The notes below the pieces were generated by a model. It made no database searches. It had not been told where the DNA came from and worked only from the letters and a program-made list of their open reading frames with translations. Shown piece after piece: positions 1 to 64,000 of a DNA stretch of 64,000 bases. The translations under genes and the position numbers were made by a program. The stretch covers positions 124,001 through 188,000 of the forward strand of contig JBAIAA010000648.1 in the NCBI GenBank assembly GCA_037893245.1, in the 5' to 3' direction. The DNA comes from Crossaster papposus (taxonomy: Eukaryota; Echinodermata; Asteroidea; Velatida; Solasteridae). Position 1 is the first letter of the stretch. The number at the start of each line of letters is the position of its first letter.

Positions 1-142
1 GTAATGAAAATGAAATCACTTTCAAGAAAAAAAAATCCTGAGCAGACCGAGGTTGTGGTCAACCAAACTCTCGGGTACTGACCAAGAAAGTGTCTACTTT
101 GTCACTCCGAGTCGAGTACCTCATGTCATACCAAAAACTTGT

Positions 143-215
143 TAGCAGAGCGAGGTTTCGATCCTCGGACCCTCTGGGTTATGGGCCCAGCACGCTTCAA
201 CTGCGCCACTATGCC
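143..215 (-). pseudogene. Module A copy with one-base insertion
   Basis: 73 nt because of an extra C next to the anticodon stem (GGACCCTCTGGG instead of GGACCTCTGGG on the plus strand). The T stem is intact and the anticodon is CAT. It also has CTTATG where other copies read CTCATG just outside the 5' end. Confidence 0.6.
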
Positions 216-944
216 TTATGTAAATTTAGAAAATGCAAACAAAATTAAAGCAGACATTCTAAAAACATTCTACAATATTTATTAAATGTGAATAGCAGTG
301 AAGCAAAAATACCTAGTTAGCAAAGCAAGGTTTTGGTCCTCGGACCTCTGGGCTATGGGCCCATCACGCTCCCGCTGCACTACTCTGCGTAACTATTTTT
401 AATGAAAATGAAATCCCTATCAAATACAAAATTATCCTGAGCAGACCGAGGTTGTGATCATCCGAACTCTCGGTTACTGACCAAGAAAGGGTCTACTTTG
501 TCACTCTGAGTCGAGTACTTCAAGTCATACCAAAAACTTATTAGCAGCAGAACGAGGTTTTGATCCTCGGCACTCTGGGTTATAGGCCCAGCAAGCTTCC
601 ACTGCGCCACCATGCCTCATGTAAATTTAGAAAAACAACAAACAAAACAAAAGCAGACATTCTAAAAACATTCTAAAATAATTATTAAATTTGAATAACA
701 GTGAAGCAAAAATACCTCTTTAGCAGAGCGAGGTTTCGGTCCTCGGGCCTCTGGGTTATGGGCCCATCACGCTCCCACGGCACCACTCTGCGTAACTATT
801 TGTAATGAAAATGAAATCACTTTCAAGAAAATAATTATCCTGAGCAGACCGAGGTTGTGGTCAACCAAACTCTCGGGTACTGACCAAGAAAGTGTCTACT
901 TTGTCACTCCGAGTCGAGTACCTCATGTCATACCAAAAACTTGT

Positions 945-1016
945 TAGCAGAGCGGGGTTTCGATCCTCGGACCTCTGGGTTTTGGGCCCAGCACGCTTCA
1001 ACTCCGCCACTATGCC
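945..1016 (-). pseudogene. Module A copy with CAA anticodon
   Basis: The anticodon loop reads CCCAAAA on the minus strand (GGGTTTTGGGCCC on the plus strand), so the CAT has become CAA. It also belongs to the subclass with CTCCGCC in place of CTGCGCC, which changes the A box from TGGCGCAG to TGGCGGAG. Confidence 0.6.
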
Positions 1017-2291
1017 TCATGTAAATTTAGAAAATGCAAACAAAATTAAAGCAGACATTCTAAAAACATTCTACAATATTTATTAAATGTGAATAGCAGT
1101 GAAGCAAAAATACCTAGTTAGCAAAGCGAGGTTTTGGTCCTCGGACCTCTGGGCTATGGGCCCATCACGCTCCCGCTGCACTACTCTGCGTAACTATTTT
1201 TAATGAAAATGAAATCCCTATCAAATACAAAATTATCCTGAGCAGACCGAGGTTGTGATCATCCGAACTCTCGGTTACTGACCAAGAAAGGGTCTACTTT
1301 GTCACTCTGAGTCGAGTACTTCAAGTCATACCAAAAACTTATTAGCAGCAGAATGAGGTTTTGATCCTCGGCACTCTGGGTTATAGGCCCAGCAAGCTTC
1401 CACTGCGCCACCATGCCTCATGTAAATTTAGAAAAACAACAAACAAAATAAAAGCAGACATTCTAAAAACATTCTAAAATAATTATTAAATTTGAATAAC
1501 AGTGAAGCAAAAATACCTCTTTAGCAGAGCGAGGTTTCGGTCCTCGGGCCTCTGGGTTATGGGCCCATCACGCTCCCACGGCACCACTCTGCGTAACTAT
1601 TTGTAATGAAAATGAAATCACTTTCAAGAAAATAATTATCCTGAGCAGACCGAGGTTGTGGTCAACCAAACTCTCGGGTACTGACCAAGAAAGTGTCTAC
1701 TTTGTCACTCCGAGTCGAGTACCTCATGTCATACCAAAAACTTGTTAGCAGAGCGGGGTTTCGATCCTCGGACCTCTGGGTTATGGGCCCAGCACGCTTC
1801 AACTGCGCCACTATGCCTCATGTAAATTTAGAAAATGCAAACAAAATTAAAGCAGACATTCTAAAAACATTCTACAATATTTATTAAATGTGAATAGCAG
1901 TGAAGCAAAAATACCTAGTTAGCAAAGCGAGGTTTTGGTCCTCGGACCTCTGGGCTATGGGCCCATCACGCTCCCGCTGCACTACTCTGCGTAACTATTT
2001 TTAATGAAAATGAAATCCCTATCAAATACAAAATTATCCTGAGCAGACCGAGGTTGTGATCATCCGAACTCTCGGTTACTGACCAAGAAAGGGTCTACTT
2101 TGTCACTCTGAGTCGAGTACTTCAAGTCATACCAAAAACTTATTAGCAGCAGAACGAGGTTTTGATCCTCGGCACTCTGGGTTATAGGCCCAGCAAGCTT
2201 CCACTGCGCCACCATGCCTCATGTAAATTTAGAAAAACAACAAACAAAATAAAAGCAGACATTCTAAAAACATTCTAAAATAATTATTAAA

Positions 2292-2379
2292 TTTGAATAA
2301 CAGTGAAGCAAAAATACCTCTTTGGCAGAGCGAGGTTTGAATAACAGTGAAGCAAAAATACCTTTTTAGCAGAGCGAGG
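2292..2379. repeat. 44-bp tandem duplication inside module D
   Basis: Two consecutive 44-bp copies (2292-2335 and 2336-2379) of the segment from TTTGAATAACAG to AGAGCGAGG. It doubles the T5 terminator and the 3' acceptor end plus half the T arm of module D, and lengthens this unit to 845 bp. The copies differ at a few bases (CTCTTTGGC against CTTTTTAGC). Seen only once in the window. Confidence 0.85.
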
Positions 2380-2590
2380 TTTCGGTCCTCGGGCCTCTGG
2401 GTTATGAGCCCATCACGCTCCCACGGCACCACTCTGCGTAACTATTTGTAATGAAAATGAAATCACTTTCAAGAAAATAATTATCCTGAGCAGACCGAGG
2501 TTGTGGTCAACCAAACTCTCGGGTACTGACCAAGAAAGTGTCTACTTTGTCACTCCGAGTCGAGTACCTCATGTCATACCAAAAACTTGT

Positions 2591-2662
2591 TAGCAGAGCG
2601 AGGTTTCGATCCTCGGACCTCTGGGTTATGGGCCCAGCACGCTTCAACTGCGCCACTATGCC
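2591..2662 (-). tRNA. Best-preserved module A copy
   Basis: Among the A copies inspected this is the only 72-nt one combining a perfect T stem (CGAGG/CCTCG) with the normal AGCAGAG acceptor 3' half and the CAT anticodon. Remaining defects are G1.U72 and one U5.C68 mismatch. The other good-T-stem copies (3392, 4193, 6596, 8999, 9800) carry TAGTAGAG, which adds a mismatch at the third acceptor pair. If any copy in the window makes a folded tRNA, this is the first candidate. Confidence 0.6.
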
Positions 2663-4984
2663 TCATGTAAATTTAGAAAATACAAACACAATTAAAGCAG
2701 ACATTCTAAAAACATTCTACAATATTTATTAAATGTGAATAGCAGTGAAGCAAAAATACCTAGTTAGCAAAGCGAGGTTTTGGTCCTCGGACCTCTGGGC
2801 TATGGGCCCATCACGCTCCCGCTGCACTACTCTGCGTAACTATTTTTAATGAAAATGAAATCCCTATCAAATACAAAATTATCCTGAGCAGACCGAGGTT
2901 GTGATCATCCGAACTCTCGGTTACTGACCAAGAAAGGGTCTACTTTGTCACTCTGAGTCGAGTACTTCAAGTCATACCAAAAACTTATTAGCAGCAGAAC
3001 GAGGTTTTGATCCTCGGCACTCTGGGTTATAGGCCCAGCAAGCTTCCACTGCGCCACCATGCCTCATGTAAATTTAGAAAAACAACAAACAAAATAAAAG
3101 CAGACATTCTAAAAACATTCTAAAATAATTATTAAATTTGAATAACAGTGAAGCAAAAATACCTCTTTAGCAGAGCGAGGTTTCGGTCCTCGGGCCTCTG
3201 GGTTATGGGCCCATCACGCTCCCACGGCACCACTCTGCGTAACTATTTGTAATGAAAATGAAATCACTTTCAAGAAAATAATTATCCTGAGCAGACCGAG
3301 GTTGTGGTCAACCAAACTCTCGGGTACTGACGAAGAAAGTGTCTACTTTGTCACTCCGAGTCGAGTACCTCATGTCATACCAAAAACTTGTTAGTAGAGC
3401 GAGGTTTCGATCCTCGGACCTCTGGGTTATGGGCCCAGCACGCTTCAACTGCGCCACTATGCCTCATGTAAATTTAGAAAATGCAAACAAAATTAAAGCA
3501 GACATTATAAAAACATTCTACAATATTTATTAAATGTGAATAGCAGTGAAGCAAAAATACCTAGTTAGCAAAGCGAGGTTTTGGTCCTCGGACCTCTGGG
3601 CTATGGGCCCATCACGCTCCCGCTGCACTACTCTGCGTAACTATTTTTAATGAAAATGAAATCCCTATCAAATACAAAATTATCCTGAGCAGACCGAGGT
3701 TGTGATCATCCGAACTCTCGGTTACTGACCAAGAAAGGGTCTACTTTGTCACTCTGAGTCGAGTACTTCAAGTCATACCAAAAACTTATTAGCAGCAGAA
3801 CGAGGTTTTGATCCTCGGCACTCTGGGTTATAGGCCCAGCAAGCTTCCACTGCGCCACCATGCCTCATGTAAATTTAGAAAAACAACAAACTAAATAAAA
3901 GCAGACATTCTAAAAACATTCTAAAATAATTATTAAATTTGAATAACAGTGAAGCAAAAATACCTCTTTAGCAGAGCGAGGTTTCGGTCCTCGGGCCTCT
4001 GGGTTATGGGCCCATCACGCTCCCACGGCACCACTCTGCGTAACTATTTGTAATGAAAATAAAATCACTTTCAAGAAAATAATTATCCTGAGCAGACCGA
4101 GGTTGTGGTCAACCAAACTCTCGGGTACTGACCAAGAAAGTGTCTACTTTGTCACTCCGAGTCGAGTACCTCATGTCATACCAAAAACTTGTTAGTAGAG
4201 CGAGGTTTCGATCCTCGGACCTCTGGGTTATGGGCCCAGCACGCTTCAACTGCGCCACTATGCCTCATGTAAATTTAGAAAATGCAAACAAAATTAAAGC
4301 AGACATTCTAAAAACATTCTACAATATTTATTAAATGTGAATAGCAGTGAAGCAAAAATACCTAGTTAGCAAAGCGAGGTTTTGGTCCTCGGACCTCTGG
4401 GCTATGGGCCCATCACGCTCTCGCTGCACTACTCTGCGTAACTATTTTTAATGAAAATGAAATCCCTATCAAATACAAAATTATCCTGAGCAGACCGAGG
4501 TTGTGATCACCCGAACTCTCGGTTACTGACCAAGAAAGGGTCTACTTTGTCACTCTGAGTCGAGTACTTCAAGTCATACCAAAAACTTATTAGCAGCAGA
4601 ACGAGGTTTTGATCCTCGGCACTCTGGGTTATAGGCCCAGCAAGCTTCCACTGCGCCACCATGCCTCATGTAAATTTAGAAAAACAACAAACAAAATAAA
4701 AGCAGACATTCTAAAAACATTCTAAAATAATTATTAAATTTGAATAACAGTGAAGCAAAAATACCTCTTTAGCAGAGCGAGGTTTCGGTCCTCGGGCCTC
4801 TGGGTTATGGGCCCATCACGCTCCCACGGCACCACTCTGCGTAACTATTTGTAATGAAAATGAAATCACTTTCAAGAAAATAATTATCCTGAGCAGACCG
4901 AGGTTGTGGTCAACCAAACTCTCGGGTACTGACCAAGAAAGTGTCTACTTTGTCACTCCGAGTCGAGTACCTCATGTCATACCA

Positions 4985-4989
4985 AAAAC
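4985..4989 (-). terminator. T5 Pol III-type terminator of module A
   Basis: On the minus strand TTTTT lies 5 nt beyond the discriminator base of module A, within GTTTTTGG. It is kept in essentially all A copies. The equivalent runs for B, C and D lie 8 nt after their 3' ends. A run of four or more T is the usual Pol III stop; function here is inferred. Confidence 0.6.
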
Positions 4990-4993
4990 TTGT

Positions 4994-5065
4994 TAGCAGA
5001 GCGGGGTTTCGATCCTCGGACCTCTGGGTTATGGGCCCAGCACGCTTCAACTGCGCCACTATGCC
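4994..5065 (-). tRNA. Module A: tRNA-iMet(CAT)-like, 72 nt
   Basis: On the minus strand this reads as a eukaryotic initiator tRNA. The D arm is GCGC/GCGT, the anticodon stem CTGGG/CCCAG carries the three consecutive G:C pairs of initiators, the loop is CCCATAA (anticodon CAT), the variable loop is AGGTC, and the T loop is ATCGAAA with A54 and A60, the eukaryotic initiator signature. The A box is TGGCGCAGTTGA and the B box GGATCGAAACC. A T5 run lies 5 nt after A73. Defects: acceptor G1.U72 wobble, a U5.C68 mismatch, and in this majority class an A51.C63 mismatch in the T stem. The family is certain; whether it is transcribed or charged is unknown. Confidence 0.85.
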
Positions 5066-5167
5066 TCATGTAAATTTAGAAAATGCAAACAAAATTAAAG
5101 CAGACATTCTAAAAACATTCTACAATATTTATTAAATGTGAATAGCAGTGAAGCAAAAATACCTAGT

Positions 5168-5239
5168 TAGCAAAGCGAGGTTTTGGTCCTCGGACCTCTG
5201 GGCTATGGGCCCATCACGCTCCCGCTGCACTACTCTGCG
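5168..5239 (-). tRNA. Module B: degenerate tRNA-iMet(CAT)-like
   Basis: 72 nt. The acceptor 5' strand is CGCAGAG against CTTTGCT, mostly paired. The anticodon stem ATGGG/CCCAG has one end mismatch, and the loop is CCCATAG with CAT in place. The T stem CGAGG/CCTCG is perfect, but the loop is ACCAAAA, so the B box has lost its central TCGA. The A box is TAGTGCAGCGGG. A T5 run lies 8 nt downstream. Probably a pseudogene with a weak Pol III promoter. Confidence 0.7.
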
Positions 5240-5288
5240 TAACTATTTTTAATGAAAATGAAATCCCTATCAAATACAAAATTATCCT

Positions 5289-5360
5289 GAGCAGACCGAG
5301 GTTGTGATCATCCGAACACTCGGTTACTGACCAAGAAAGGGTCTACTTTGTCACTCTGAG
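5289..5360 (-). pseudogene. Decayed tRNA-size relic in the B-C linker
   Basis: Exactly 72 nt between an AGCAGAC acceptor-like end and a CTCTGAG opposite end (plus-strand reading), aligned collinearly with module C over its length. On the minus strand a CTTGG/CCGAG stem encloses a 7-nt loop TCAGTAA where the anticodon arm should be. The B box is destroyed by a short insertion and the A box is degenerate (TGACAAAGTAGA). The same segment occurs in every complete linker. Read as an older tRNA-iMet module that has lost its promoter. Confidence 0.55.
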
Positions 5361-5394
5361 TCGAGTACTTCAAGTCATACCAAAAACTTATTAG

Positions 5395-5466
5395 CAGCAG
5401 AACGAGGTTTTGATCCTCGGCACTCTGGGTTATAGGCCCAGCAAGCTTCCACTGCGCCACCATGCC
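5395..5466 (-). pseudogene. Module C: tRNA-iMet-like with TAT anticodon
   Basis: 72 nt. It keeps a good A box (TGGCGCAGTGGA) and a perfect T stem, but the loop reads CCTATAA, so the anticodon position is TAT instead of CAT. The D stem has a mismatch (GCGC/GCTT), the T loop is ATCAAAA, and the variable loop is AGTGC. An extra AGC lies just 3' of the acceptor end. The T5 run is 8 nt downstream. Judged a pseudogene; a functional tRNA-Ile(UAU) is very unlikely because the rest of the molecule is initiator-like. Confidence 0.7.
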
Positions 5467-5570
5467 TCATGTAAATTTAGAAAAACAACAAACAAAATAA
5501 AAGCAGACATTCTAAAAACATTCTAAAATAATTATTAAATTTGAATAACAGTGAAGCAAAAATACCTCTT

Positions 5571-5642
5571 TAGCAGAGCGAGGTTTCGGTCCTCGGGCCT
5601 CTGGGTTATGGGCCCATCACGCTCCCACGGCACCACTCTGCG
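5571..5642 (-). tRNA. Module D: tRNA-iMet(CAT)-like
   Basis: 72 nt. The acceptor CGCAGAG/CTCTGCT pairs at six of seven positions (C1.U72 fails), which is better than module A. The D stem GTGC/GCGT pairs with wobbles, the anticodon loop is CCCATAA, the anticodon stem ATGGG/CCCAG has one mismatch, and the T stem CGAGG/CCTCG is perfect. The T loop is ACCGAAA, so U55 is lost and the B box is weakened to GGACCGAAACC. The T5 run is 8 nt downstream. Confidence 0.75.
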
Positions 5643-5691
5643 TAACTATTTGTAATGAAAATGAAATCACTTTCAAGAAAATAATTATCCT

Positions 5692-5763
5692 GAGCAGACC
5701 GAGGTTGTGGTCAACCAAACTCTCGGGTACTGACCAAGAAAGTGTCTACTTTGTCACTCCGAG
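5692..5763 (-). pseudogene. Decayed tRNA-size relic in the D-A linker
   Basis: Paralogue of the relic in the B-C linker, again 72 nt, from the base before AGCAGAC to CTCCGAG on the plus strand. It spans the arbitrary unit boundary. With it, each ~401-bp half holds three tRNA-size modules, at successive spacings of about 174, 121 and 106 bp. Confidence 0.5.
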
Positions 5764-8700
5764 TCGAGTACCTCATGTCATACCAAAAACTTGTTAGCAG
5801 AGCGGGGTTTCGATCCTCGGACCTCTGGGTTATGGGCCCAGCACGCTTCAACTGCGCCACTATGCCTCATGTAAATTTAGAAAATGCAAACAAAATTAAA
5901 GCAGACATTCTAAAAACATTCTACAATATTTATTAAATGTGAATAGCAGTGAAGCAAAAATACCTAGTTAGCAAAGCGAGGTTTTGGTCCTCGGACCTCT
6001 GGGCTATGGGCCCATCACGCTCCCGCTGCACTACTCTGCGTAACTATTTTTAATGAAAATGAAATCCCTATCAAATACAAAATTATCCTGAGCAGACCGA
6101 GGTTGTGATCATCCGAACTCTCGGTTACTGACCAAGAAAGGGTCTACTTTGTCACTCTGAGTCGAGTACTTCAAGTCATACCAAAAACTTATTAGCAGCA
6201 GAACGAGGTTTTGATCCTCGGCACTCTGGGTTATAGGCCCAGCAAGCTTCCACTGCGCCACCATGCCTCATGTAAATTTAGAAAAACAACAAACTAAATA
6301 AAAGCAGACATTCTAAAAACATTCTAAAATAATTATTAAATTTGAATAACAGTGAAGCAAAAATACCTCTTTAGCAGAGCGAGGTTTCGGTCCTCGGGCC
6401 TCTGGGTTATGGGCCCATCACGCTCCCACGGCACCACTCTGCGTAACTATTTGTAATGAAAATAAAATCACTTTCAAGAAAATAATTATCCTGAGCAGAC
6501 CGAGGTTGTGGTCAACCAAACTCTCGGGTACTGACCAAGAAAGTGTCTACTTTGTCACTCCGAGTCGAGTACCTCATGTCATACCAAAAACTTGTTAGTA
6601 GAGCGAGGTTTCGATCCTCGGACCTCTGGGTTATGGGCCCAGCACGCTTCAACTGCGCCACTATGCCTCATGTAAATTTAGAAAATGCAAACAAAATTAA
6701 AGCAGACATTCTAAAAACATTCTACAATATTTATTAAATGTGAATAGCAGTGAAGCAAAAATACCTAGTTAGCAAAGCGAGGTTTTGGTCCTCGGACCTC
6801 TGGGCTATGGGCCCATCACGCTCTCGCTGCACTACTCTGCGTAACTATTTTTAATGAAAATGAAATCCCTATCAAATACAAAATTATCCTGAGCAGACCG
6901 AGGTTGTGATCACCCGAACTCTCGGTTACTGACCAAGAAAGGGTCTACTTTGTCACTCTGAGTCGAGTACTTCAAGTCATACCAAAAACTTATTAGCAGC
7001 AGAACGAGGTTTTGATCCTCGGCACTCTGGGTTATAGGCCCAGCAAGCTTCCACTGCGCCACCATGCCTCATGTAAATTTAGAAAAACAACAAACAAAAT
7101 AAAAGCAGACATTCTAAAAACATTCTAAAATAATTATTAAATTTGAATAACAGTGAAGCAAAAATACCTCTTTAGCAGAGCGAGGTTTCGGTCCTCTGGC
7201 CTCTGGGTTATGGGCCCATCACGCTCCCACGGCACCACTCTGCGTAACTATTTGTAATGAAAATGAAATCACTTTCAAGAAAATAATTATCCTGAGCAGA
7301 CCGAGGTTGTGGTCAACCAAACTCTCGGGTACTGACCAAGAAAGTGTCTACTTTGTCACTCCGAGTCGAGTACCTCATGTCATACCAAAAACTTGTTAGC
7401 AGAGCGGGGTTTCGATCCTCGGACCTCTGGGTTATGGGCCCAGCACGCTTCAACTGCGCCACTATGCCTCATGTAAATTTAGAAAATGCAAACAAAATTA
7501 AAGCAGACATTCTAAAAACATTCTACAATATTTATTAAATGTGAATAGCAGTGAAGCAAAAATACCTAGTTAGCAAAGCGAGGTTTTGGTCCTCGGACCT
7601 CTGGGCTATGGGCCCATCACGCTCCCGCTGCACTACTCTGCGTAACTATTTTTAATGAAAATGAAATCCCTATCAAATACAAAATTATCCTGAGCAGACC
7701 GAGGTTGTGATCATCCGAACACTCGGTTACTGACCAAGAAAGGGTCTACTTTGTCACTCTGAGTCGAGTACTTTAAGTCATACCAAAAACTTATTAGCAG
7801 CAGAACGAGGTTTTGATCCTCGGCACTCTGGGTTATAGGCCCAGCAAGCTTCCACTGCGCCACCATGCCTCATGTAAATTTAGAAAAACAACAAACAAAA
7901 TAAAAGCAGACATTCTAAAAACATTCTAAAATAATTATTAAATTTGAATAACAGTGAAGCAAAAATACCTCTTTAGCAGAGCGAGGTTTCGGTCCTCGGG
8001 CCTCTGGGTTATGGGCCCATCACGCTCCCACGGCACCACTCTGCGTAACTATTTGTAATGAAAATGAAATCACTTTCAAGAAAATAATTATCCTGAGCAG
8101 ACCGAGGTTGTGGTCAACCAAACTCTCGGGTACTGACCAAGAAAGTGTCTACTTTGTCACTCCGAGTCGAGTACCTCATGTCATACCAAAAACTTGTTAG
8201 CAGAGCGGGGTTTCGATCCTCGGACCTCTGGGTTATGGGCCCAGCACGCTTCAACTGCGCCACTATGCCTCATGTAAATTTAGAAAATGCAAACAAAATT
8301 AAAGCAGACATTCTAAAAACATTCTACAATATTTATTAAATGTGAATAGCAGTGAAGCAAAAATACCTAGTTAGCAAAGCGAGGTTTTGGTCCTCGGACC
8401 TCTGGGCTATGGGCCCATCACGCTCCCGCTGCACTACTCTGCGTAACTATTTTTAATGAAAATAAAATCCCTATCAAATACAAAATTATCCTGAGCAGAC
8501 CGAGGTTGTGATCATCCGAACTCTCGGTTACTGACCAAGAAAGGGTCTACTTTGTCACTCTGAGTCGAGTACTTCAAGTCATACCAAAAACTTATTAGCA
8601 GCAGAACGAGGTTTTGATCCTCTGCACTCTGGGTTATAGGCCCAGCAAGCTTCCACTGCGCCACCATGCCTCATGTAAATTTAGAAAAACAACAAACTAA

Positions 8701-11348
8701 ATAAAAGCAGACATTCTAAAAACATTCTAAAATAATTATTAAATTTGAATAACAGTGAAGCAAAAATACCTCTTTAGCAGAGCGAGGTTTCGGTCCTCGG
8801 GCCTCTGGGTTATGGGCCCATCACGCTCCCACGGCACCACTCTGCGTAACTATTTGTAATGAAAATGAAATCACTTTCAAGAAAATAATTATCCTGAGCA
8901 GACCGAGGTTGTGGTCAACCAAACTCTCGGGTACTGACGAAGAAAGTGTCTACTTTGTCACTCCGAGTCGAGTACCTCATGTCATACCAAAAACTTGTTA
9001 GTAGAGCGAGGTTTCGATCCTCGGACCTCTGGGTTATGGGCCCAGCACGCTTCAACTGCGCCACTATGCCTCATGTAAATTTAGAAAATGCAAACAAAAT
9101 TAAAGCAGACATTCTAAAAACATTCTACAATATTTATTAAATGTGAATAGCAGTGAAGCAAAAATACCTAGTTAGCAAAGCGAGGTTTTGGTCCTCGGAC
9201 CTCTGGGCTATGGGCCCATCACGCTCCCGCTGCACTACTCTGCGTAACTATTTTTAATGAAAATGAAATCCCTATCAAATACAAAATTATCCTGAGCAGA
9301 CCGAGGTTGTGATCATCCGAACTCTCGGTTACTGACCAAGAAAGGGTCTACTTTGTCACTCTGAGTCGAGTACTTCAAGTCATACCAAAAACTTATTAGC
9401 AGCAGAACGAGGTTTTGATCCTCGGCACTCTGGGTTATAGGCCCAGCAAGCTTCCACTGCGCCACCATGCCTCATGTAAATTTAGAAAAACAACAAACAA
9501 AATAAAAGCAGACATTCTAAAAACATTCTAAAATAATTATTAAATTTGAATAACAGTGAAGCAAAAATACCTCTTTAGCAGAGCGAGGTTTCGGTCCTCG
9601 GGCCTCTGGGTTATGGGCCCATCACGCTCCCACGGCACCACTCTGCGTAACTATTTGTAATGAAAATGAAATCACTTTCAAGAAAATAATTATCCTGAGC
9701 AGACCGAGGTTGTGGTCAACCAAACTCTCGGGTACTGACCAAGAAAGTGTCTACTTTGTCACTCCGAGTCGAGTACCTCATGTCATACCAAAAACTTGTT
9801 AGTAGAGCGAGGTTTCGATCCTCGGACCTCTGGGTTATGGGCCCAGCACGCTTCAACTGCGCCACTATGCCTCATGTAAATTTAGAAAATGCAAACAAAA
9901 TTAAAGCAGACATTCTAAAAACATTCTACAATATTTATTAAATGTGAATAGCAGTGAAGCAAAAATACCTAGTTAGCAAAGCGAGGTTTTGGTCCTCGGA
10001 CCTCTGGGCTATGGGCCCATCACGCTCCCGCTGCACTACTCTGCGTAACTATTTTTAATGAAAATGAAATCCCTATCAAATACAAAATTATCCTGAGCAG
10101 ACCGAGGTTGTGATCACCCGAACTCTCGGTTACTGACCAAGAAAGGGTCTACTTTGTCACTCTGAGTCGAGTACTTCAAGTCATACCAAAAACTTATTAG
10201 CAGCAGAACGAGGTTTTGATCCTCGGCACTCTGGGTTATAGGCCCAGCAAGCTTCCACTGCGCCACCATGCCTCATGTAAATTTAGAAAAACAACAAACA
10301 AAATAAAAGCAGACATTCTAAAAACATTCTAAAATGATTATTAAATTTGAATAACAGTGAAGCAAAAATACCTCTTTAGCAGAGCGAGGTTTCGGTCCTC
10401 GGGCCTCTGGGTTATGGGCCCATCACGCTCCCACGGCACCACTCTGCGTAACTATTTGTAATGAAAATGAAATCACTTTCAAGAAAATAATTATCCTGAG
10501 CAGACCGAGGTTGTGGTCAACCAAACTCTCGGGTACTGACCAAGAAAGTGTCTACTTTGTCACTCCGAGTCGAGTACCTCATGTCATACCAAAAACTTGT
10601 TAGCAGAGCGGGGTTTCGATCCTCGGACCTCTGGGTTATGGGCCCAGCACGCTTCAACTGCGCCACTATGCCTCATGTAAATTTAGAAAATGCAAACAAA
10701 ATTAAAGCAGACATTCTAAAAACATTCTACAATATTTATTAAATGTGAATAGCAGTGAAGCAAAAATACCTAGTTAGCAAAGCGAGGTTTTGGTCCTCGG
10801 ACCTCTGGGCTATGGGCCCATCACGCTCCCGCTGCACTACTCTGCGTAACTATTTTTAATGAAAATGAAATCCCTATCAAATACAAAATTATCCTGAGCA
10901 GACCGAGGTTGTGATCATCCGAACACTCGGTTACTGACCAAGAAAGGGTCTACTTTGTCACTCTGAGTCGAGTACTTCAAGTCATACCAAAAACTTATTA
11001 GCAGCAGAACGAGGTTTTGATCCTCGGCACTCTGGGTTATAGGCCCAGCAAGCTTCCACTGCGCCACCATGCCTCATGTAAATTTAGAAAAACAACAAAC
11101 AAAATAAAAGCAGACATTCTAAAAACATTCTAAAATAATTATTAAATTTGAATAACAGTGAAGCAAAAATACCTCTTTAGCAGAGCGAGGTTTCGGTCCT
11201 CGGGCCTCTGGGTTATGGGCCCATCACGCTCCCACGGCACCACTCTGCGTAACTATTTGTAATGAAAATGAAATCACTTTCAAGAAAATAATTATCCTGA
11301 GCAGACCGAGGTTGTGGTCAACCAAACTCTCGGGTACTGACCAAGAAA

Positions 11349-14300: not shown

Positions 14301-14536
14301 TACATTCTAAAAACATTCTAAAATAATTATTAAATTTGAATAACAGTGAAGCAAAAATACCTCTTTAGCAGAGCGAGGTTTCGGTCCTCGGGCCTCTGGG
14401 TTATGGGCCCATCACGCTCCCACGGCACCACTCTGCGTAACTATTTGTAATGAAAATGAAATCACTTTCAAGAAAATAATTATCCTGAGCAGACCGAGGT
14501 TGTGGTCAACCAAACTCTCGGGTACTGACCAAGAAA
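11349..14536. repeat. 1594-bp (two-unit) higher-order duplication
   Basis: Two blocks, 11349-12942 and 12943-14536. Both carry an 8-bp deletion in module C (CTTCCACCATGCC, near 11858 and 13452), GAACACTCGG (12516 and 14110) and AGCATACATTC (12705 and 14299). The 8-bp loss removes part of the A box of module C in both copies. Confidence 0.8.
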
Positions 14537-15334: not shown

Positions 15335-15732
15335 GTGTCTACTTTGTCACTCCGAGTCGAGTACCTCAAGTCATACCAAAAACTTGTTAGCAGAGCGGGG
15401 TTTCGATCCTCGGACCTCTGGGTTATGGGCCCAGCACGCTTCAACTGCGCCACTATGCCTCATGTAAATTTAGAAAATGCAAACAAAATTAAAGCAGACA
15501 TTCTAAAAACATTCTACAATATTTATTAAATGTGAATAGCAGTGAAGCAAAAATACCTCTTTAGCAGAGCGAGGTTTCGGTCCTCGGGCCTCTGGGTTAA
15601 GGGCCCATCACGCTCCCACGGCACCACTCTGCGTAACTATTTGTAATGAAAATGAAATCACTTTCAAGAAAATAATTATCCTGAGCAGAGCGAGGTTGTG
15701 GTCAACCAAACTCTCGGGTACTGACCAAGAAA
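15335..15732. repeat. 398-bp half unit (A then D; B and C lost)
   Basis: Module A at 15388 is followed directly by D-type sequence: the spacer GTGAAGCAAAAATACCT switches from the CTAGTTAGC continuation to CTCTTTAGC near 15558. This is what an unequal exchange between the homologous A-B and C-D spacers, 403 bp apart, would produce. The unit also has CCTCAAGTC instead of CCTCATGTC, a C-type base. Confidence 0.8.
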
Positions 15733-46727: not shown

Positions 46728-46741
46728 AGCGGGCGTTGTAA

Positions 46742-50662: not shown

Positions 50663-50717
50663 TGTCCTCGGGCCTCTGGGTTATGAGCCCATCACGCTCC
50701 CACGGCACCACTCTGCG
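50663..50717 (-). pseudogene. Truncated module D, fourth copy
   Basis: Same deletion junction with GAGCCC. The following module A is of the CTCCGCC subclass, as after every other copy of this deletion. Confidence 0.75.
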
Positions 50718-52188: not shown

Positions 52189-52243
52189 TGTCCTTGGGCC
52201 TCTGGGTTATGAGCCCATCACGCTCCCACGGCACCACTCTGCG
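52189..52243 (-). pseudogene. Truncated module D, fifth copy
   Basis: Same junction with GAGCCC, plus a private CCTTGGGCC. The downstream relic has CTGTGCAG in place of CTGAGCAG. Confidence 0.75.
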
Positions 52244-53992: not shown

Positions 53993-54064
53993 TAGCAGAG
54001 CGGGGTTTCGATCCTCGGACCTTTGGGTTATGGGCCCAGCACGCTCCCACGGCACCACTCTGCG
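53993..54064 (-). pseudogene. Hybrid A/D module, third copy
   Basis: Same A/D junction; private GACCTTTGGG. The unit is 1018 bp because the preceding module B has lost 7 bp (CTCTGGGCCCATC near 53401). The copy of AAAGTGTCTAC just after it reads AAAGTTTCTAC. Confidence 0.7.
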
Positions 54065-57000
54065 TAACTATTTGTAATGAAAATGAAATCACTTTCAAGA
54101 AAATAATTATCCTGAGCAGACCGAGGTTGTGGTCAACAAAACTCTCGGGTACTGACCAAGAAAGTTTCTACTTTGTCACTCCAAGTCGAGTACCTCATGT
54201 CATACCAAAAACTTGTTAGCAGAGCGGGGTTTCGATCCTCGGACCTCTGGGTTATGGGCCCAGCACGCTTCAACTGCGCCACTATGCCTCATGTAAATTT
54301 AGAAAATGCAAACAAAATTAAAGCAGACATTCTAAAAACATTCTACAATATTTATTAAATGTGAATAGCAGTGAAGCAAAAATACCTAGTTAGCAAAGCG
54401 AGGTTTTGGTCCTCGGACCTCTTGGCTATGGGCCCATCACGCTCCCGCTGCACTACTCTGCGTAACTATTTTTAATGAAAATGAAATCGCTATCAAATAC
54501 AAAATTATCCTGAGCAGACCGAGGTTGTGATCATCCGAACTCTCGGTTACTGACCAAGAAAGGGTCTACTTTGTCACTCTGAGTCGAGTACTTCAAGTCA
54601 TACCAAAAACTTATTAGCAGCAGAACGAGGTTTTGATCCTCGGCACTCTGGGTTATAGGCCCAGCAAGCTTCCACTGCGCCACCATGCCTCATGTAAATT
54701 TAGAAAAACAACAATCAAAATAAAAGCAGACATTCTAAAAACATTCTAAAATAATTATTAAATCTGAATAACAGTGAAGCAAAAATACCTCTTTAGCAGA
54801 GCGAGGTTTTGGTCCTCGGGCCTCTGGGTTATGGGCCCATCACGCTCCCACGGCACCACTCTGCGTAACTATTTGTAATGAAAATGAAATCACTTTCAAG
54901 AAAATAATTATCCTGAGCAGACCGAGGTTGTGGTCAACCAAACTCTCGGGTACTGACCAAGAAAGTGTCTACTTTGTCACTCCGAGTCGAGTACCTCATG
55001 TCATACCAAAAACTTGTTAGCAGAGCGGGGTTTCGATCCTCGGACCTCTGGGTTATGGGCCCAGCACGCTTCAACTGCGCCACTATGCCTCATGTAAATT
55101 TAGAAAATGCAAACAAAATTAAAGCAGACATTCTAAAAACATTCTACAATATTTATTAAATGTGAATAGCAGTGAAGCAAAAATACCTAGTTAGCAAAGC
55201 GAGGTTTTGGTCCTCGGACCTCTGGGCTATGGGCCCATCACGCTCCCGCTGCACTACTCTGCGTAACTATTTTTAATGAAAATGAAATCCCTATCAAATA
55301 CAAAATTATCCTGAGCAGACCGAGGTTGTGATCATCCGAACTCTCGGTTACTGACCAAGAAAGGGTGTACTTTGTCACTCTGAGTCGAGTACTTCAAGTC
55401 ATACCAAAAACTTATTAGCAGCAGAACGAGGTTTTGATCCTCGACACTCTGGGTTATAGGCCCAGGAAGCTTCCACTGCGCCACCATGCCTCATGTAAAT
55501 TTAGAAAAACAACAAACAAAATAAAAGCAGACATTCTAAAAACATTCTAAAATAATTATTAAATTTGAATAACAGTGAAGCAAAAATACCTCTTTAGCAG
55601 AGCGAGGTTTCGGTCCTCGGGCCTCTGGGTTATGGGCCCATCACGCTCCCACGGCACCACTCTGCGTAACTATTTGTAATGAAAATGAAATCACTTTCAA
55701 GAAAATAATTATCCTGAGCAGACCGAGGTTGTGGTCAACCAAACTCTCGGGTACTGACCAAGAAAGTGTCTACTTTGTCACTCCGAGTCGAGTACCTCAT
55801 GTCATACCAAAAATTTGTTAGCAGAGCGGGGTTTCGATCCTCGGATCTCTGGGTTATGGGCCCAGCACGCTTCAACTGCGCCACTATGCCTCATGTAAAT
55901 TTAGAAAATGCAAACAAAATTAAAGCAGACATTCTAAAAACATTCTACAATATTTATTAAATGTGAATAGCAGTGAAGCAAAAATACCTAGTTAGCAAAG
56001 CGAGGTTTTGGTCCTCGGACCTCTGGGCTATGGGCCCATCACGCTCCCGCTGCACTACTCTGCGTAACTATTTTTAATGAAAATGAAATCCCTATCAAAT
56101 ACAAAATTATCCTGAGCAGACCGAGGTTGTGATCATCCGAACTCTCGGTTACTGACCAAGAAAGGGTCTACTTTGTCACTCTGAGTCGAGTACTTCAAGT
56201 CATACCAAAAACTTATTAGCAGCAGAACGAGGTTTTGATCCTCGGCACTCTGGGTTATAGGCCCAACAAGCTTCCACTGCGCCACCATGCCTCATGTAAA
56301 TTTAGAAAAACAACAAACAAAATAAAAGCAGACATTCTAAAAACATTCTAAAATAATTATTAAATTTGAATAACAGTGAAGCAAAAATACCTCTTTAGCA
56401 GAGCGAGGTTTTGGTCCTCGGGCCTCTGGGTTATGGGCCCATCACGCTCCCACGGCACCACTCTGCGTAACTATTTGTAATGAAAATGAAATCACTTTCA
56501 AGAAAATAATTATCCTGAGCAGACCGAGGTTGTGGTCAACCAAACTCTCGGGTACTGACCAAGAAAGTGTCTACTTTGTCACTCCGAGTCGAGTACCTCA
56601 TGTCATACCAAAAACTTGTTAGCAGAGCGGGGTTTGGATCCTCGGACCTCTGGGTTATGGGCCCAGCACGCTTCAACTGCGCCACTATGCCTCATGTAAA
56701 TTTAGAAAATGCAAACAAAATTAAAGCAGACATTCTAAAAACATTCTACAATATTTATTAAATGTGAATAGCAGTGAAGCAAAAATACCTAGTTAGCAAA
56801 GCGAGGTTTTGGTCCTCGGACCTCTGGGCTATGGGCCCATCACGCTCCCGCTGCACTACTCTGCGTAACTATTTTTAATGAAAATGAAATCCCTATCAAA
56901 TACAAAATTATCCTGAGCAGACCGAGGTTGTGATCATCCGAACTCTCGGTTACTGACCAAGAAAGGGTCTACTTTGTCACTCTGAGTCGAGTACTTCAAG

Positions 57001-58221
57001 TCATACCAAAAACTTATTAGCAGCAGAACGAGGTTTTGATCCTCGGCACTCTGGGTTATAGGCCCAGCAAGCTTCCACTGCGCCACCATGCCTCATGTAA
57101 ATTTAGAAAAACAACAAACAAAATAAAAGCAGACATTCTAAAAACATTCTAAAATAATTATTAAATTTGAATAACAGTGAAGCAAAAATACCTCTTTAGC
57201 AGAGCGAGGTTTCGGTCCTCGGGCCTCTGGGTTATGGGCCCATCACACTCCCACGGCACCACTCTGCGTAACTATTTGTAATGAAAATGAAATCACTTTC
57301 AAGAAAATAATTATCCTGAGCAGACCGAGGTTGTGGTCAACCAAACTCTCGGGTACTGACCAAGAAAGTGTCTACTTTGTCACTCCGAGTCGAGTACCTC
57401 ATGTCATACCAAAAACTTGTTAGCAGAGCGGGGTTTGGATCCTCGGACCTCTGGGCTATGGGCCCAGCACGCTTCAACTGCGCCACTATGCCTCATGTAA
57501 ATTTAGAAAATGCAAACAAAATTAAAGCAGACATTCTAAAAACATTCTACAATATTTATTAAATGTGAATAGCAGTGAAGCAAAAATACCTAGTTAGCAA
57601 AGCGAGGTTTTGGTCCTCGGACCTCTGGGCTATGGGCCCATCACGCTCCCGCTGCACTACTCTGCGTAACTATTTTTAATGAAAATGAAATCCCTATCAA
57701 ATACAAAATTATCCTGAGCAGACCGAGGTTGTGATCATCCGAACTCTCGGTTACTGACCAAGAAAGGGTCTACTTTGTCACTCTGAGTCGAGTACTTCAA
57801 GTCATACCAAAAACTTATTAGCAGCAGAACGAGGTTTTGATCCTCGGCACTCTGGGTTATAGGCCCAGCAAGCTTCCACTGCGCCACCATGCCTCATGTA
57901 AATTTAGAAAAACAACAAACAAAATAAAAGCAGACATTCTAAAAACATTCTAAAATAATTATTAAATTTGAATAACAGTGAAGCAAAAATACCTCTTTAG
58001 CAGAGCGAGGTTTCGGTCCTCGGGCCTCTGGGTTATGGGCCCATCACGCTCCCACGGCACCACTCTGCGTAACTATTTGTAATGAAAATGAAATCACTTT
58101 CAAGAAAATAATTATCCTGAGCAGACCGAGGTTGTGGTCAACCAAACTCTCGGGTACTGACCAAGAAAGTGTCTACTTTGTCACTCCGAGTCGAGGACCT
58201 CATGTCATACCAAAAACTTGT

Positions 58222-58293
58222 TAGCAGAGCGGGGTTTGGATCCTCGGACCTCTGGGTTATGGGCCCAGCACGCTCCCACGGCACCACTCTGCG
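58222..58293 (-). pseudogene. Hybrid A/D module, fourth copy
   Basis: Same junction with the TTTGGATCC T arm. The segment before it carries the private GTCGAGGACC, shared with the copy at 61252. Confidence 0.7.
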
Positions 58294-59193
58294 TAACTAT
58301 TTGTAATGAAAATGAAATCACTTTCAAGAAAATAATTATCCTGAGCAGACCGAGGTTGTGGTCAACCAAACTCTCGGGTACTGACCAAGAAAGTGTCTAC
58401 TTTGTCACTCCGAGTCGAGTACCTCATGTCATACCAAAAATTTGTTAGCAGAGCGGGGTTTCGATCCTCGGATCTCTGGGTTATGGGCCCAGCACGCTTC
58501 AACTGCGCCACTATGCCTCATGTAAATTTAGAAAATGCAAACAAAATTAAAGCAGACATTCTAAAAACATTCTACAATATTTATTAAATGTGAATAGCAG
58601 TGAAGCAAAAATACCTAGTTAGCAAAGCGAGGTTTTGGTCCTCGGACCTCTGGGCTATGGGCCCATCACGCTCCCGCTGCACTACTCTGCGTAACTATTT
58701 TTAATGAAAATGAAATCCCTATCAAATACAAAATTATCCTGAGCAGACCGAGGTTGTGATCATCCGAACTCTCGGTTACTGACCAAGAAAGGGTGTACTT
58801 TGTCACTCTGAGTCGAGTACTTCAAGTCATACCAAAAACTTATTAGCAGCAGAACGAGGTTTTGATCCTCGGCACTCTGGGTTATAGGCCCAGCAAGCTT
58901 CCACTGCGCCACCATGCCTCATGTAAATTTAGAAAAACAACAAACAAAATAAAAGCAGACATTCTAAAAACATTCTAAAATAATTATTAAATTTGAATAA
59001 CAGTGAAGCAAAAATACCTCTTTAGCAGAGCGAGGTTTCGGTCCTCGGGCCTCTGGGTTATGGGCCCATCACGCTCCCACGGCACCACTCTGCGTAACTA
59101 TTTGTAATGAAAATGAAATCACTTTCAAGAAAATAATTATCCTGAGCAGACCGAGGTTGTGGTCAACCAAACTCTCGGGTACTGACCAAGAAA

Positions 59194-60397
59194 GTGTCTA
59201 CTTTGTCACTCCGAGTCGAGTACCTCATGTCATACCAAAAACTTGTTAGCAGAGCGGGGTTTGGATCCTCGGACCTCTGGGTTATGGGCCCAGCACGCTT
59301 CAACTGCGCCACTATGCCTCATGTAAATTTAGAAAATGCAAACAAAATTAAAGCAGACATTCTAAAAACATTCTACAATATTTATTAAATGTGAATAGCA
59401 GTGAAGCAAAAATACCTAGTTAGCAAAGCGAGGTTTTGGTCCTCGGACCTCTGGGCTATGGGCCCATCACGCTCCCGCTGCACTACTCTGCGTAACTATT
59501 TTTAATGAAAATGAAATCCCTATCAAATACAAAATTATCCTGAGCAGACCGAGGTTGTGATCATCCGAACTCTCGGTTACTGACCAAGAAAGGGTCTACT
59601 TTGTCACTCTGAGTCGAGTACTTCAAGTCATACCAAAAACTTATTAGCAGCAGAACGAGGTTTTGATCCTCGGCACTCTGGGTTATAGGCCCAGCAAGCT
59701 TCCACTGCGCCACCATGCCTCATGTAAATTTAGAAAAACAACAAACAAAATAAAAGCAGACATTCTAAAAACATTCTAAAATAATTATTAAATTTGAATA
59801 ACAGTGAAGCAAAAATACCTCTTTAGCAGAGCGAGGTTTCGGTCCTCGGGCCTCTGGGTTATGGGCCCATCACGCTCCCACGGCACCACTCTGCGTAACT
59901 ATTTGTAATGAAAATGAAATCACTTTCAAGAAAATAATTATCCTGAGCAGACCGAGGTTGTGGTCAACCAAACTCTCGGGTACTGACCAAGAAAGTGTCT
60001 ACTTTGTCACTCCGAGTCGAGTACCTCAAGTCATACCAAAAACTTATTAGCAGCAGAACGAGGTTTTGATCCTCGGCACTCTGGGTTATAGGCCCAGCAA
60101 GCTTCCACTGCGCCACCATGCCTCATGTAAATTTAGAAAAACAACAAACAAAATAAAAGCAGACATTCTAAAAACATTCTAAAATAATTATTAAATTTGA
60201 ATAACAGTGAAGCAAAAATACCTCTTTAGCAGAGCGAGGTTTCGGTCCTCGGGCCTCTGGGTTATGGGCCCATCACACTCCCACGGCACCACTCTGCGTA
60301 ACTATTTGTAATGAAAATGAAATCACTTTCAAGAAAATAATTATCCTGAGCAGACCGAGGTTGTGGTCAACCAAACTCTCGGGTACTGACCAAGAAA
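59194..60397. repeat. 1204-bp unit with an extra C-D half
   Basis: Order A, B, C, D, C, D. Near 60025 the D-type linker GTCGAGTACCTC continues into the C-type AAGTCATACC and a second module C at 60048. It is the gain product (+403 bp) reciprocal in kind to the 398-bp half unit at 15.3 kb. Confidence 0.8.
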
Positions 60398-61251
60398 GTG
60401 TCTACTTTGTCACTCCGAGTCGAGTACCTCATGTCATACCAAAAACTTGTTAGCAGAGCGGGGTTTGGATCCTCGGACCTCTGGGCTATGGGCCCAGCAC
60501 GCTTCAACTGCGCCACTATGCCTCATGTAAATTTAGAAAATGCAAACAAAATTAAAGCAGACATTCTAAAAACATTCTACAATATTTATTAAATGTGAAT
60601 AGCAGTGAAGCAAAAATACCTAGTTAGCAAAGCGAGGTTTTGGTCCTCGGACCTCTGGGCTATGGGCCCATCACGCTCCCGCTGCACTACTCTGCGTAAC
60701 TATTTTTAATGAAAATGAAATCCCTATCAAATACAAAATTATCCTGAGCAGACCGAGGTTGTGATCATCCGAACTCTCGGTTACTGACCAAGAAAGGGTC
60801 TACTTTGTCACTCTGAGTCGAGTACTTCAAGTCATACCAAAAACTTATTAGCAGCAGAACGAGGTTTTGATCCTCGGCACTCTGGGTTATAGGCCCAGCA
60901 AGCTTCCACTGCGCCACCATGCCTCATGTAAATTTAGAAAAACAACAAACAAAATAAAAGCAGACATTCTAAAAACATTCTAAAATAATTATTAAATTTG
61001 AATAACAGTGAAGCAAAAATACCTCTTTAGCAGAGCGAGGTTTCGGTCCTCGGGCCTCTGGGTTATGGGCCCATCACGCTCCCACGGCACCACTCTGCGT
61101 AACTATTTGTAATGAAAATGAAATCACTTTCAAGAAAATAATTATCCTGAGCAGACCGAGGTTGTGGTCAACCAAACTCTCGGGTACTGACCAAGAAAGT
61201 GTCTACTTTGTCACTCCGAGTCGAGGACCTCATGTCATACCAAAAACTTGT

Positions 61252-61323
61252 TAGCAGAGCGGGGTTTGGATCCTCGGACCTCTGGGTTATGGGCCCAGCA
61301 CGCTCCCACGGCACCACTCTGCG
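61252..61323 (-). pseudogene. Hybrid A/D module, fifth copy
   Basis: Partner of the copy at 58222 at a shift of exactly 3030 bp, including the GTCGAGGACC variant. Confidence 0.7.
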
Positions 61324-62276
61324 TAACTATTTGTAATGAAAATGAAATCACTTTCAAGAAAATAATTATCCTGAGCAGACCGAGGTTGTGGTCAACCAAA
61401 CTCTCGGGTACTGACCAAGAAAGTGTCTACTTTGTCACTCCGAGTCGAGTACCTCATGTCATACCAAAAACTTGTTAGCAGAGCGGGGTTTCGATCCTCG
61501 GACCTCTGGGTTATGGGCCCAGCACGCTTCAACTGCGCCAATATGCCTCATGTAAATTTAGAAAATGCAAACAAAATTAAAGCAGACATTCTAAAAACAT
61601 TCTACAATATTTATTAAATGTGAATAGCAGTGAAGCAAAAATACCTAGTTAGCAAAGCGAGGTTTTGGTCCTCGGACCTCTGGGCTATGGGCCCATCACG
61701 CTCCCGCTGCACTACTCTGCGTAACTATTTTTAATGAAAATGAAATCCCTATCAAATACAAAATTATCCTGAGCAGACCGAGGTTGTGATCATCCGAACT
61801 CTCGGTTACTGACCAAGAAAGGGTCTACTTTGTCACTCTGAGTCGAGTACTTCAAGTCATACCAAAAACTTATTAGCAGCAGAACGAGGTTTTGATCCTC
61901 GACACTCTGGGTTATAGGCCCAGGAAGCTTCCACTGCGCCACCATGCCTCATGTAAATTTAGAAAAACAACAAACAAAATAAAAGCAGACATTCTAAAAA
62001 CATTCTAAAATAATTATTAAATTTGAATAACAGTGAAGCAAAAATACCTCTTTAGCAGAGCGAGGTTTCGGTCCTCGGGCCTCTGGGTTATGGGCCCATC
62101 ACGATCCCACGGCACCACTCTGCGTAACTATTTGTAATGAAAATGAAATCACTTTCAAGAAAATAATTATCCTGAGCAGACCGAGGTTGTGGTCAACCAA
62201 ACTTTCGGGTACTGACCAAGAAAGTGTCTACTTTGTCACTCCGAGTCGAGTACCTCATGTCATACCAAAAACTTGT

Positions 62277-62348
62277 TAGCAGAGCGGGGTTTGGATCCTC
62301 GGACCTCTGGGTTATGGGCCCAGCACGCTCCCACGGCACCACTCTGCT
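62277..62348 (-). pseudogene. Hybrid A/D module, sixth copy
   Basis: Same junction with the TTTGGATCC T arm; the 5' acceptor end reads CTCTGCT on the plus strand, adding a further change at position 1. Confidence 0.65.
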
Positions 62349-63301
62349 TAACTATTTGTAATGAAAATGAAATCACTTTCAAGAAAATAATTATCCTGAG
62401 CAGACCGAGGTTGTGGTCAACCAAACTCTCGGGTACTGACCAAGAAAGTGTCTACTTTGTCACTCCGAGTCGAGTACCTCATGTCATACCAAAAACTTGT
62501 TAGCAGAGCGGGGTTTCGATCCTCGGACCTCTGGGTTATGGGCCCAGCACGCTTCAACTGCGCCACTATGCCTCATGTAAATTTAGAAAATGCAAACAAA
62601 ATTGAAGCAGACATTCTAAAAACATTCTACAATATTTATTAAATGTGAATAGCAGTGAAGCAAAAATACCTAGTTAGCAAAGCGAGGTTTTGGTCCTCGG
62701 ACCTCTGGGCTATGGGCCCATCACACTCCCGCTGCACTACTCTGCGTAACTATTTTTAATGAAAATGAAATCCCTATCAAATACAAAATTATCCTGAGCA
62801 GACCGAGGTTGTGATCATCCGAACTCTCGGTTACTGACCAAGAAAGGGTCTACTTTGTCACTCTGAGTCGAGTACTTCAAGTCATACCAAAAACTTATTA
62901 GCAGCAGAACGAGGTTTTGATCCTCGACACTCTGGGTTATAGGCCCAGGAAGCTTCCACTGCGCCACCATGCCTCATGTAAATTTAGAAAAACAACAAAC
63001 AAAATAAAAGCAGACATTCTAAAAACATTCTAAAATAATTATTAAATTTGAATAACAGTGAAGCAAAAATACCTCTTTAGCAGAGCGAGGTTTCGGTCCT
63101 CGAGCCTCCGGGTTATGGGCCCATCACGCTCCCACGGCACCACTCTGCGTAACTATTTGTAATGAAAATAAAATCACTTTCAAGAAAATAATTATCCTGA
63201 GCAGACCGAGGTTGTGGTCAACCAAACTCTCGGGTACTGACCAAGAAAGTGTCTACTTTGTCACTCCGAGTCGAGTACCTCATGTCATACCAAAAATTTG
63301 T

Positions 63302-63373
63302 TAGCAGAGCGGGGTTTCGATCCTCGACACTCTGGGTTATAGGCCCAGCAAGCTTCCACTGCGCCACCATGCC
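63302..63373 (-). pseudogene. Hybrid A/C tRNA-like module
   Basis: Starts as module A (AGAGCGGGGTTTCGATCC) and changes to module C after the T arm (CGACACTCTGGGTTATAGG). 72 nt, anticodon TAT. Followed by a normal C spacer and module D at 63478. Confidence 0.7.
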
Positions 63374-63648
63374 TCATGTAAATTTAGAAAAACAACAAAC
63401 AAAATAAAAGCAGACATTCTAAAAACATTCTAAAATAATTATTAAATTTGAATAACAGTGAAGCAAAAATACCTCTTTAGCAGAGCGAGGTTTCGGTCCT
63501 CGGGCCTCTGGGTTATGGGCCCATCACGCTCCCACGGAACCACTCTGCGTAACTATTTGTAATGAAAATGAAATCACTTTCAAGAAAATAATTATCCTGA
63601 GCGGACCGAGGTTGTGGTCAACCAAACTCTCGGGTACTGACCAAGAAA

Positions 63649-63765
63649 GTGTCTACTTTGTCACTCCGAGTCGAGTACCTCATGTCATACCAAAAAAGCA
63701 GACATTCTAAAAACATTCTACAATATTTATTAAATGTGAATAGCAGTGAAGCAAAAATACCTAGT
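63649..63765. other. Deletion of module A (110 bp lost)
   Basis: The relic linker runs to CATACCAAAAA and then joins AGCAGACATTC of the A spacer, so the whole tRNA part of this module A is missing. The join lies in an A-run shared by both sides. Confidence 0.7.
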
Positions 63766-63837
63766 TAGCAAAGCGAGGTTTTGGTCCTCGGACCTCTGGG
63801 CTATGGGCCCAGCAAGCTTCCACTGCGCCACCATGCC
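63766..63837 (-). pseudogene. Hybrid B/C tRNA-like module
   Basis: The 3' half is B (TAGCAAAGCGAGGTTTTGG, GGGCTATGGG) and the 5' half C (CCAGCAAGCTTCCACTGCGCC). 72 nt, switch at GGGCCCA, anticodon CAT. The linker relic normally between B and C is lost. Confidence 0.7.
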
Positions 63838-64000
63838 TCATGTAAATTTAGAAAAACAACAAACAAAATAAAAGCAGACATTCTAAAAACATTCTAAAAT
63901 AATTATTAAATTTGAATAACAGTGAAGCAAAAATACCTCTTTAGCAGAGCGAGGTTTCGGTCCTCGGGCCTCTGGGTTATGGGCCCATCACGCTCCCACG

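Follow-up and report, generated by a model that had tools for sequence, protein, structure and literature searches.

Tandem repeats that carry a tRNA-derived part are an already known kind of sequence. The newt PolIII/TAN family (~360 nt; Nagahashi 1991, via PMC10702118) is related to tRNA-Glu and, by that account, can be transcribed in vitro. The same account lists Xenopus OAX (satellite I), Rana/polIII (~250 nt) and Hydromantes Hy/polIII (~200 nt) as abundant tandem families in which one segment is, or may be, related to tRNA (PMC10702118). The present analysis concerns a 64,000-nt stretch of the sea star Crossaster papposus (assembly GCA_037893245.1, contig JBAIAA010000648.1, forward-strand positions 124,001 to 188,000, i.e., C648:124001-188000; hereafter the window), which is occupied by a satellite composed of modules related to the initiator methionine tRNA (iMet). 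Like newt PolIII/TAN, it is a tandem repeat with a tRNA-related part. Unlike that family, which as far as described there involves another tRNA and one tRNA-like sequence per unit, it contains three modules per ~400 bp and also exists in a dimeric, higher-order form. The likeness to tRNA in OAX, Rana/polIII and Hy/polIII is partial or doubted in that account, whereas the putative ancestral module of the sea star satellite equals a host gene over 72 nt. The sea star case is set apart by its initiator source, by a unit of three modules, and by having parent-type genes, near-canonical arrays and a higher-order layer side by side. No initiator-tRNA satellite was found in the literature searched, a body of work to which subscription papers mostly did not belong.

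Two other systems are useful for comparison. In Xenopus laevis, clustered tRNA1Met genes and a 3.18-kb tRNA gene (tDNA) repeat form tandem arrays that include initiator tRNA genes, in some hundreds of copies; these are long functional units with several different tRNA genes, unlike the short trimer of the sea star, which is built from iMet only. In primate alpha satellite, one and the same segment carries two forms of a single family, single-unit arrays that are heterogeneous and higher-order-repeat arrays that are homogeneous. In sequence, the sea star satellite likewise has a heterogeneous single-unit layer and a homogeneous higher-order layer; its unit, unlike that of alpha satellite, is tRNA-derived and dimeric.

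Organisation of the array and its unit

An earlier inspection of the letters (the sequence-only reading) had described the window as ~310 iMet-like modules in one orientation, with everything repeated apart from one transposon, and direct counting bears this out. The initiator anticodon core GGGCCCATAACCCAGAGG, searched with up to 3 substitutions, has 311 matches on the minus strand of the window; on the plus strand there are 0, even with 4 substitutions allowed. Covariance-model scores at background for all modules would have refuted that reading, but the scores rise above it: the Rfam tRNA model RF00005 gives 194 matches at or above its gathering score (29 bits), and every one of the 150 listed among them lies on the minus strand. 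The best of them (2591..2662, minus strand) reaches 49.8 bits and is also accepted by ARAGORN, which accepts only 4 tRNAs in the window. Altogether, 62,590 of the 64,000 bases belong to an 801-bp unit on the minus strand, and no base is covered on the plus strand only. The sole unit-free stretch of at least 20 bases, at 46486-47895, divides the array into a first part (1..46485) and a second part (47896..64000), both on the minus strand.

The proposed 801-bp period is also confirmed, with 45 of 80 anchor spacings being exactly 801 bp. Among 51 units with lengths of 796-806 bp, pairwise identity has a mean of 99.1%, a figure from which the 29 of 80 spacings outside this range were dropped. On the minus strand, the order within the unit is A1-C1-B2-A2-C2-B1, and its two halves differ by 8 to 16%, depending on the region. 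The A and B modules are the ~310 modules of the sequence-only reading, which had them right; it missed a third, badly decayed block, C, which lies between A and B in each ~400-bp half-unit (161 places in the window). Minus-strand examples are an A1 module at 945..1016 (39.4 bits in Rfam), an A2 module with the anticodon UAU at 545..616 (35.5 bits), a B1 module with the loop CCCATAG at 318..389 and a C2 module at 438..510, which is recognised by sequence similarity and has no match to the tRNA covariance model. The window is therefore a satellite in the usual sense, as shown by long head-to-tail arrays of one unit, which also fill 10 of 20 sampled 10-kb stretches, and by homogenised copies within arrays. 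It is a tRNA-derived one in that its module is homologous to a host tRNA gene, as indicated by the Rfam matches and by the A consensus, discussed below.

The descent of block C from iMet is visible in its alignment. It aligns ungapped over 73 nt with several other modules, and in ten comparisons, made against A, B and an iMet reference, it outscores all 2,000 dinucleotide shuffles every time. In the consensus of a simpler, 398-bp form of the unit, A and B agree at 64 of 72 positions, and both A and C and B and C at 50 of 72. The 5' and 3' flanks of A, B and C show no similarity to one another (1,000 shuffles each, p 0.33-1.0). Homology over the 72 module positions together with dissimilar flanks argues that three iMet-derived loci, each in surroundings unrelated to those of the others, make up the unit as a trimer. 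A run of four or more T occurs within 25 nt downstream of 309 of 310 A and B modules, for example the T5 run at 133..137 (minus strand) just after an A module, a possible terminator for RNA polymerase III (Pol III). Such runs also follow all 161 C modules of the window, while the C consensus of the 398-bp form has only T3.

Some modules combine parts of different types. In the window, 16 of 303 cleanly typed modules join left and right halves of different types, 10 of the 16 being A to B. Classification by flanks gives 10 A/B hybrids among the 310 modules, with 7 more unclassified; at a second array, at 4.32 Mb of contig C146, the same test gives 23 of 127. Since A and B share only their tRNA part, A/B junctions should fall inside the tRNA. 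We read the hybrids as traces of exchange or conversion between tRNA homologies that were out of register.

Decay of the window modules

None of the 310 modules audited (the one cut by the window end was dropped) has all features of a working initiator gene, namely A1:U72, the anticodon CAU, the three G:C pairs of the anticodon stem, A54, paired stems, A box, B box and a T-run. Among the signatures on which the sequence-only reading had based the initiator identity, the G:C triplets hold almost everywhere (305/310), while two loops are not universal. The anticodon loop is CCCATAA in 153 modules, CCCATAG in 76 and CCTATAA, with the anticodon UAU, in 69; CAU itself occurs in 239 of 310. For the T loop, the counts are 73 for ATCGAAA, 80 for ACCAAAA, 75 for ATCAAAA and 66 for ACCGAAA. 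A1:U72 is kept in 2/310, and the acceptor stem is fully paired in 9/310. The A-box consensus fits 141 modules and the B-box consensus 148. A single module combines both boxes, a T-run and CAU (28284..28355, minus strand), and it lacks A1:U72.

The modules are also not conserved relative to their surroundings. Per-site variability in the window is 0.0054 in modules versus 0.0032 in spacers, and when the module mask is shifted circularly, 793 of the 801 shifts yield a difference that does not exceed the observed one. CpG sites are more variable than others (0.0098 versus 0.0040), which may account for part of the module excess. Constraint on the modules was looked for in both the 801-bp and the 398-bp layers and was not found. 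Among the roles that the sequence-only reading had considered, inert satellite therefore fits the window best, with modules no less variable than spacers and no fully canonical copy. We infer that the window modules are pseudogenes that do not feed translation. They may or may not have a Pol III- or TFIIIC-binding role; A box, B box and T-run are kept together in 67 of the 310, 1 of these with CAU.

Near-canonical arrays and intact genes elsewhere in the genome

Searches of the 1.023-Gb assembly (1,841 contigs) placed the window in a larger family. Comparison of the 801-bp unit with the whole assembly, as the sequence-only reading had proposed, found full-length matches of 98-100% identity on at least 12 contigs, a lower bound from 40 scored of 344 candidate places. 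Matches of this type occur at C146 3.0-3.66 Mb, discontinuously and with none at 3.50-3.51, and at C262 0.18-0.67 Mb. Of twenty 10-kb stretches, picked mostly near matches, 10 were all satellite, 6 part satellite and 4 without satellite. In the C146 3.0-3.66 Mb arrays, the left halves of A1, A2 and B1 were found and an exact B2 left half was not; these arrays are apparently a separate variant of the 801-bp repeat.

A 33-nt pattern for the 5' half of canonical iMet, with as many as 2 mismatches tolerated, has 264 forward and 5,539 reverse matches genome-wide, 5,803 in all, with 1 inside the window; the reversed control pattern has 0. Among the 100 matches listed, all are on C146, and near-canonical copies among them are located at 4.32-4.39 and 6.0 Mb. 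Additionally, 81 copies with a changed flank letter occur at C146 5.6-6.7 Mb (35) and C262 0.99-2.55 Mb (46). In C146:4320175-4347787, the unit is the single 398-bp trimer, and 26 regular units have 94.4% mean identity, a figure from which 25 of 51 spacings outside 390-405 bp were dropped. The 81 changed-flank copies are taken to belong to this layer as well, its sequence having been read at C146 4.32 and 6.00 Mb only. With one unit assumed per 5'-half match, the layer would measure roughly 2 Mb. Both layers share contigs, because 801-type copies and copies assigned to the near-canonical layer are both found on C146 and C262.

Taken as a consensus, the A module of the 398-bp layer is an iMet gene with a perfect cloverleaf. 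In C146:4320175-4347787, 5 of 128 modules are exact copies and 14 show the full canonical set, with G:U pairs accepted, and at C146:6003001-6006000, 3 of 14 are exact. Exact array copies score 58.7 bits and keep the T5 run. Variability in this layer is 0.0370 in modules versus 0.0328 in spacers, and 0.0369 in A modules alone. At C146 ~4321534 the strand switches, with minus-strand matches before and plus-strand matches after this point.

Intact iMet genes also exist outside the satellite. At least four are found on contig C885, at 563132, 568706, 569547 and 570405, a lower bound because the patterns used screen against the satellite flank, and do so incompletely; one further pattern match, whose letters were not read, is at C885:574006. 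Each of the four genes read is identical over its 72 bases to the A consensus of the 398-bp layer, reaches 58.7 bits and has a T-run downstream, and their flanks show no similarity to either satellite unit. This identity supports the initiator origin of the satellite, in agreement with the sequence-only reading, and the satellite appears to have come from this gene type. In other words, the array need not supply the cell, since iMet genes exist outside it. Three neighbouring genes (C885:568550-570600) lie ~850 bp apart and have similar flanks, including CCAGTCAAC just upstream, and look like recent local duplicates.

Several further observations concern the surroundings of the satellite. The unit-free stretch of the window is a 1,410-bp, DNA-transposon-like insertion (46486..47895) with ends TAGACCACAGGGCATGGC and GCCATGCCCTGTGGTCTA, 18-bp terminal inverted repeats (TAGACCACAGGGCATGGC) and a 3-bp GAA target duplication at 46483-46485 and 47896-47898. 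Pfam recognised no family in four translated frames of the insertion, and one frame had no homologue in the protein collection. The first 10 kb of the contig (C648:1-10000) are all satellite, with most modules at a median of 26 of 72 positions from canonical iMet (ungapped), which would fit either insufficient polishing of the sequence or a layer of much greater age. A 10-bp tandem repeat, ATTAAATCAA, with ~511 copies, lies between satellite stretches at C146 ~3.504-3.510 Mb. Repeats of 28 bp (ACTCGAGTCGAGTCATTTGCC...) recur every ~930 bp at C648 ~400.6-406.3 kb, which suggests another satellite family near the iMet satellite. Exact patterns (two from the satellite, one from a transposon end) had 0 matches in viral contigs, and the 801 bp had no match when searched against phages. 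The mitochondrial COX1, on the 16.3-kb contig C1841, was translated with code 9 and matches that of the sea star Meridiastra gunnii (class Asteroidea) at 434 of 446 residues; the three next best, named Zoroaster ophiactis, Asterias amurensis and Ceramaster, match at 428 to 429, which marks the host as a sea star. Besides this COX1, stop-free COX1 frames occur on the large contig C8 (5208663-5210009 and 2872001-2873343), perhaps from a cobiont or contaminant of bacterial origin.

Origin of the satellite and its meaning

It is probable that the satellite was born from host initiator-tRNA genes and that the window is its decayed, homogenised higher-order layer. A block of three iMet-derived loci (A intact, B ~89% and C ~69% identical to A) would have become a tandem unit of ~398 bp. 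Joint amplification of two diverged units would then have produced, in some of the arrays, the 801-bp higher-order repeat, as in the window, which would make the heterogeneous 398-bp layer the older of the two. Unequal exchange or conversion may keep copy number and sequence moving. The 72-bp tRNA homologies in otherwise unrelated unit parts would allow out-of-register exchange, giving rise to A/B hybrids and spacing variants. Ordinary iMet genes elsewhere could supply translation instead of the window modules, and any role of the array would most likely be structural, of the heterochromatin or centromere type.

Several results weigh against this account. Both boxes and a T-run occur together in 67 of the 310 window modules, some of which could be transcribed. 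Two modules unite A1:U72, G:C triplets, CAU and A54: a hybrid accepted by ARAGORN at 62277..62348 (minus strand), with no fitting A or B box and one T-stem mismatch, and a module at 35715..35786 (minus strand), with 5 of 7 acceptor pairs and an unfitting A box. The C modules have no match to the tRNA covariance model. That the 398-bp form came before the 801-bp form is deduced from how similar the units are and from the canonical A consensus rather than by comparison with an outgroup. Moreover, the persistence of near-exact iMet copies in other arrays could reflect selection or recent conversion from live genes.

The last point leads to the idea that the near-canonical arrays, though not the window, are a working reserve of initiator-tRNA genes that Pol III would transcribe, possibly in the oocyte or the embryo, with the window as their decayed fringe. 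The 5,803 near-canonical 5' halves, the exact copies that equal the C885 genes in score and keep the T5 run, and the 14 fully canonical modules of 128 all speak for such a reserve, as does the Arabidopsis tandem tDNA cluster, which most tissues keep silent but which is active in root tips (PMC12308677). This SYY tRNA-Ser/Tyr cluster, which adjoins heterochromatin, is like the present arrays in its tandem tRNA genes (PMC12308677). It differs in being a plant cluster of functional genes for other isoacceptors, and a decayed higher-order layer is not mentioned in the abstract of that account (PMC12308677). However, A modules of the 398-bp layer are as variable as its spacers (0.0369 versus 0.0328), 114 of 128 modules are not fully canonical, and ordinary iMet genes are present elsewhere, which leaves a functional reserve unlikely. 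The gene amplification considered in the sequence-only reading does not hold for the window, and survives as a fair account of the start of the satellite. A bolder proposal is that the near-canonical arrays are live, with thousands of initiator-tRNA genes as a reserve for oocytes and early embryos resembling that of ribosomal DNA (rDNA), and that the 801-bp layer, with many A2 modules having both Pol III boxes and reading UAU rather than CAU, would make initiator-like decoy RNAs or a TFIIIC-organised chromatin domain; we regard this as quite improbable.

A retroposed origin, in which the unit is a tandemised short interspersed element (SINE) or a tRNA-containing retrotransposon, e.g., a Helenus-type terminal-repeat retrotransposon in miniature (TRIM), would explain why the A/B/C homology ends close to the mature tRNA ends. 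Precedents are found in accounts of tRNA-containing TRIMs (PMC10886601) and SINE-derived satellites (PMC10702118). The squamate satellites among the latter share a Pol III-type source with the present one and are thought to have begun by unequal recombination (PMC10702118); unlike them, the sea star satellite has no SINE body that could be found in the flanks of A, B and C. Retroposition is disfavoured because the consensus has neither a CCA nor an A-rich tail after the modules. There is also no body sequence common to the three modules, so that the head, shared body and tail of a SINE are not seen together, and the A module is exactly the host iMet gene; we therefore hold such an origin to be rather doubtful. 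As for the assembly, collapsed or over-expanded repeats might exaggerate the length or regularity of the arrays, and the first 10 kb of C648 are indeed as far from the unit (longest match 85.1% over 1,662 bp; modules a median of 26/72 from iMet) as poor polishing would leave them. An artefact is very improbable, however, given a unit found on 12 contigs, a module-type mix that differs between sampled stretches, junctions with non-satellite DNA in 6 of 20 of these, and an element with a clean target duplication sitting in the array.

A birth from host initiator-tRNA genes thus remains the probable account. For annotation, the array is a hazard, as a tRNA finder would call many false or uncertain initiator genes. 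The family may serve as a test case for tRNA genes seeding satellites and for unequal exchange at short internal homologies, and also for asking if Pol III promoter-like sequence, when it amounts to megabases, alters chromatin or titrates TFIIIC. If the proposed origin is right, this would be a satellite grown from an essential, single-function gene, with intact parent-type genes, near-canonical arrays and a decayed, homogenised higher-order layer present in one genome.

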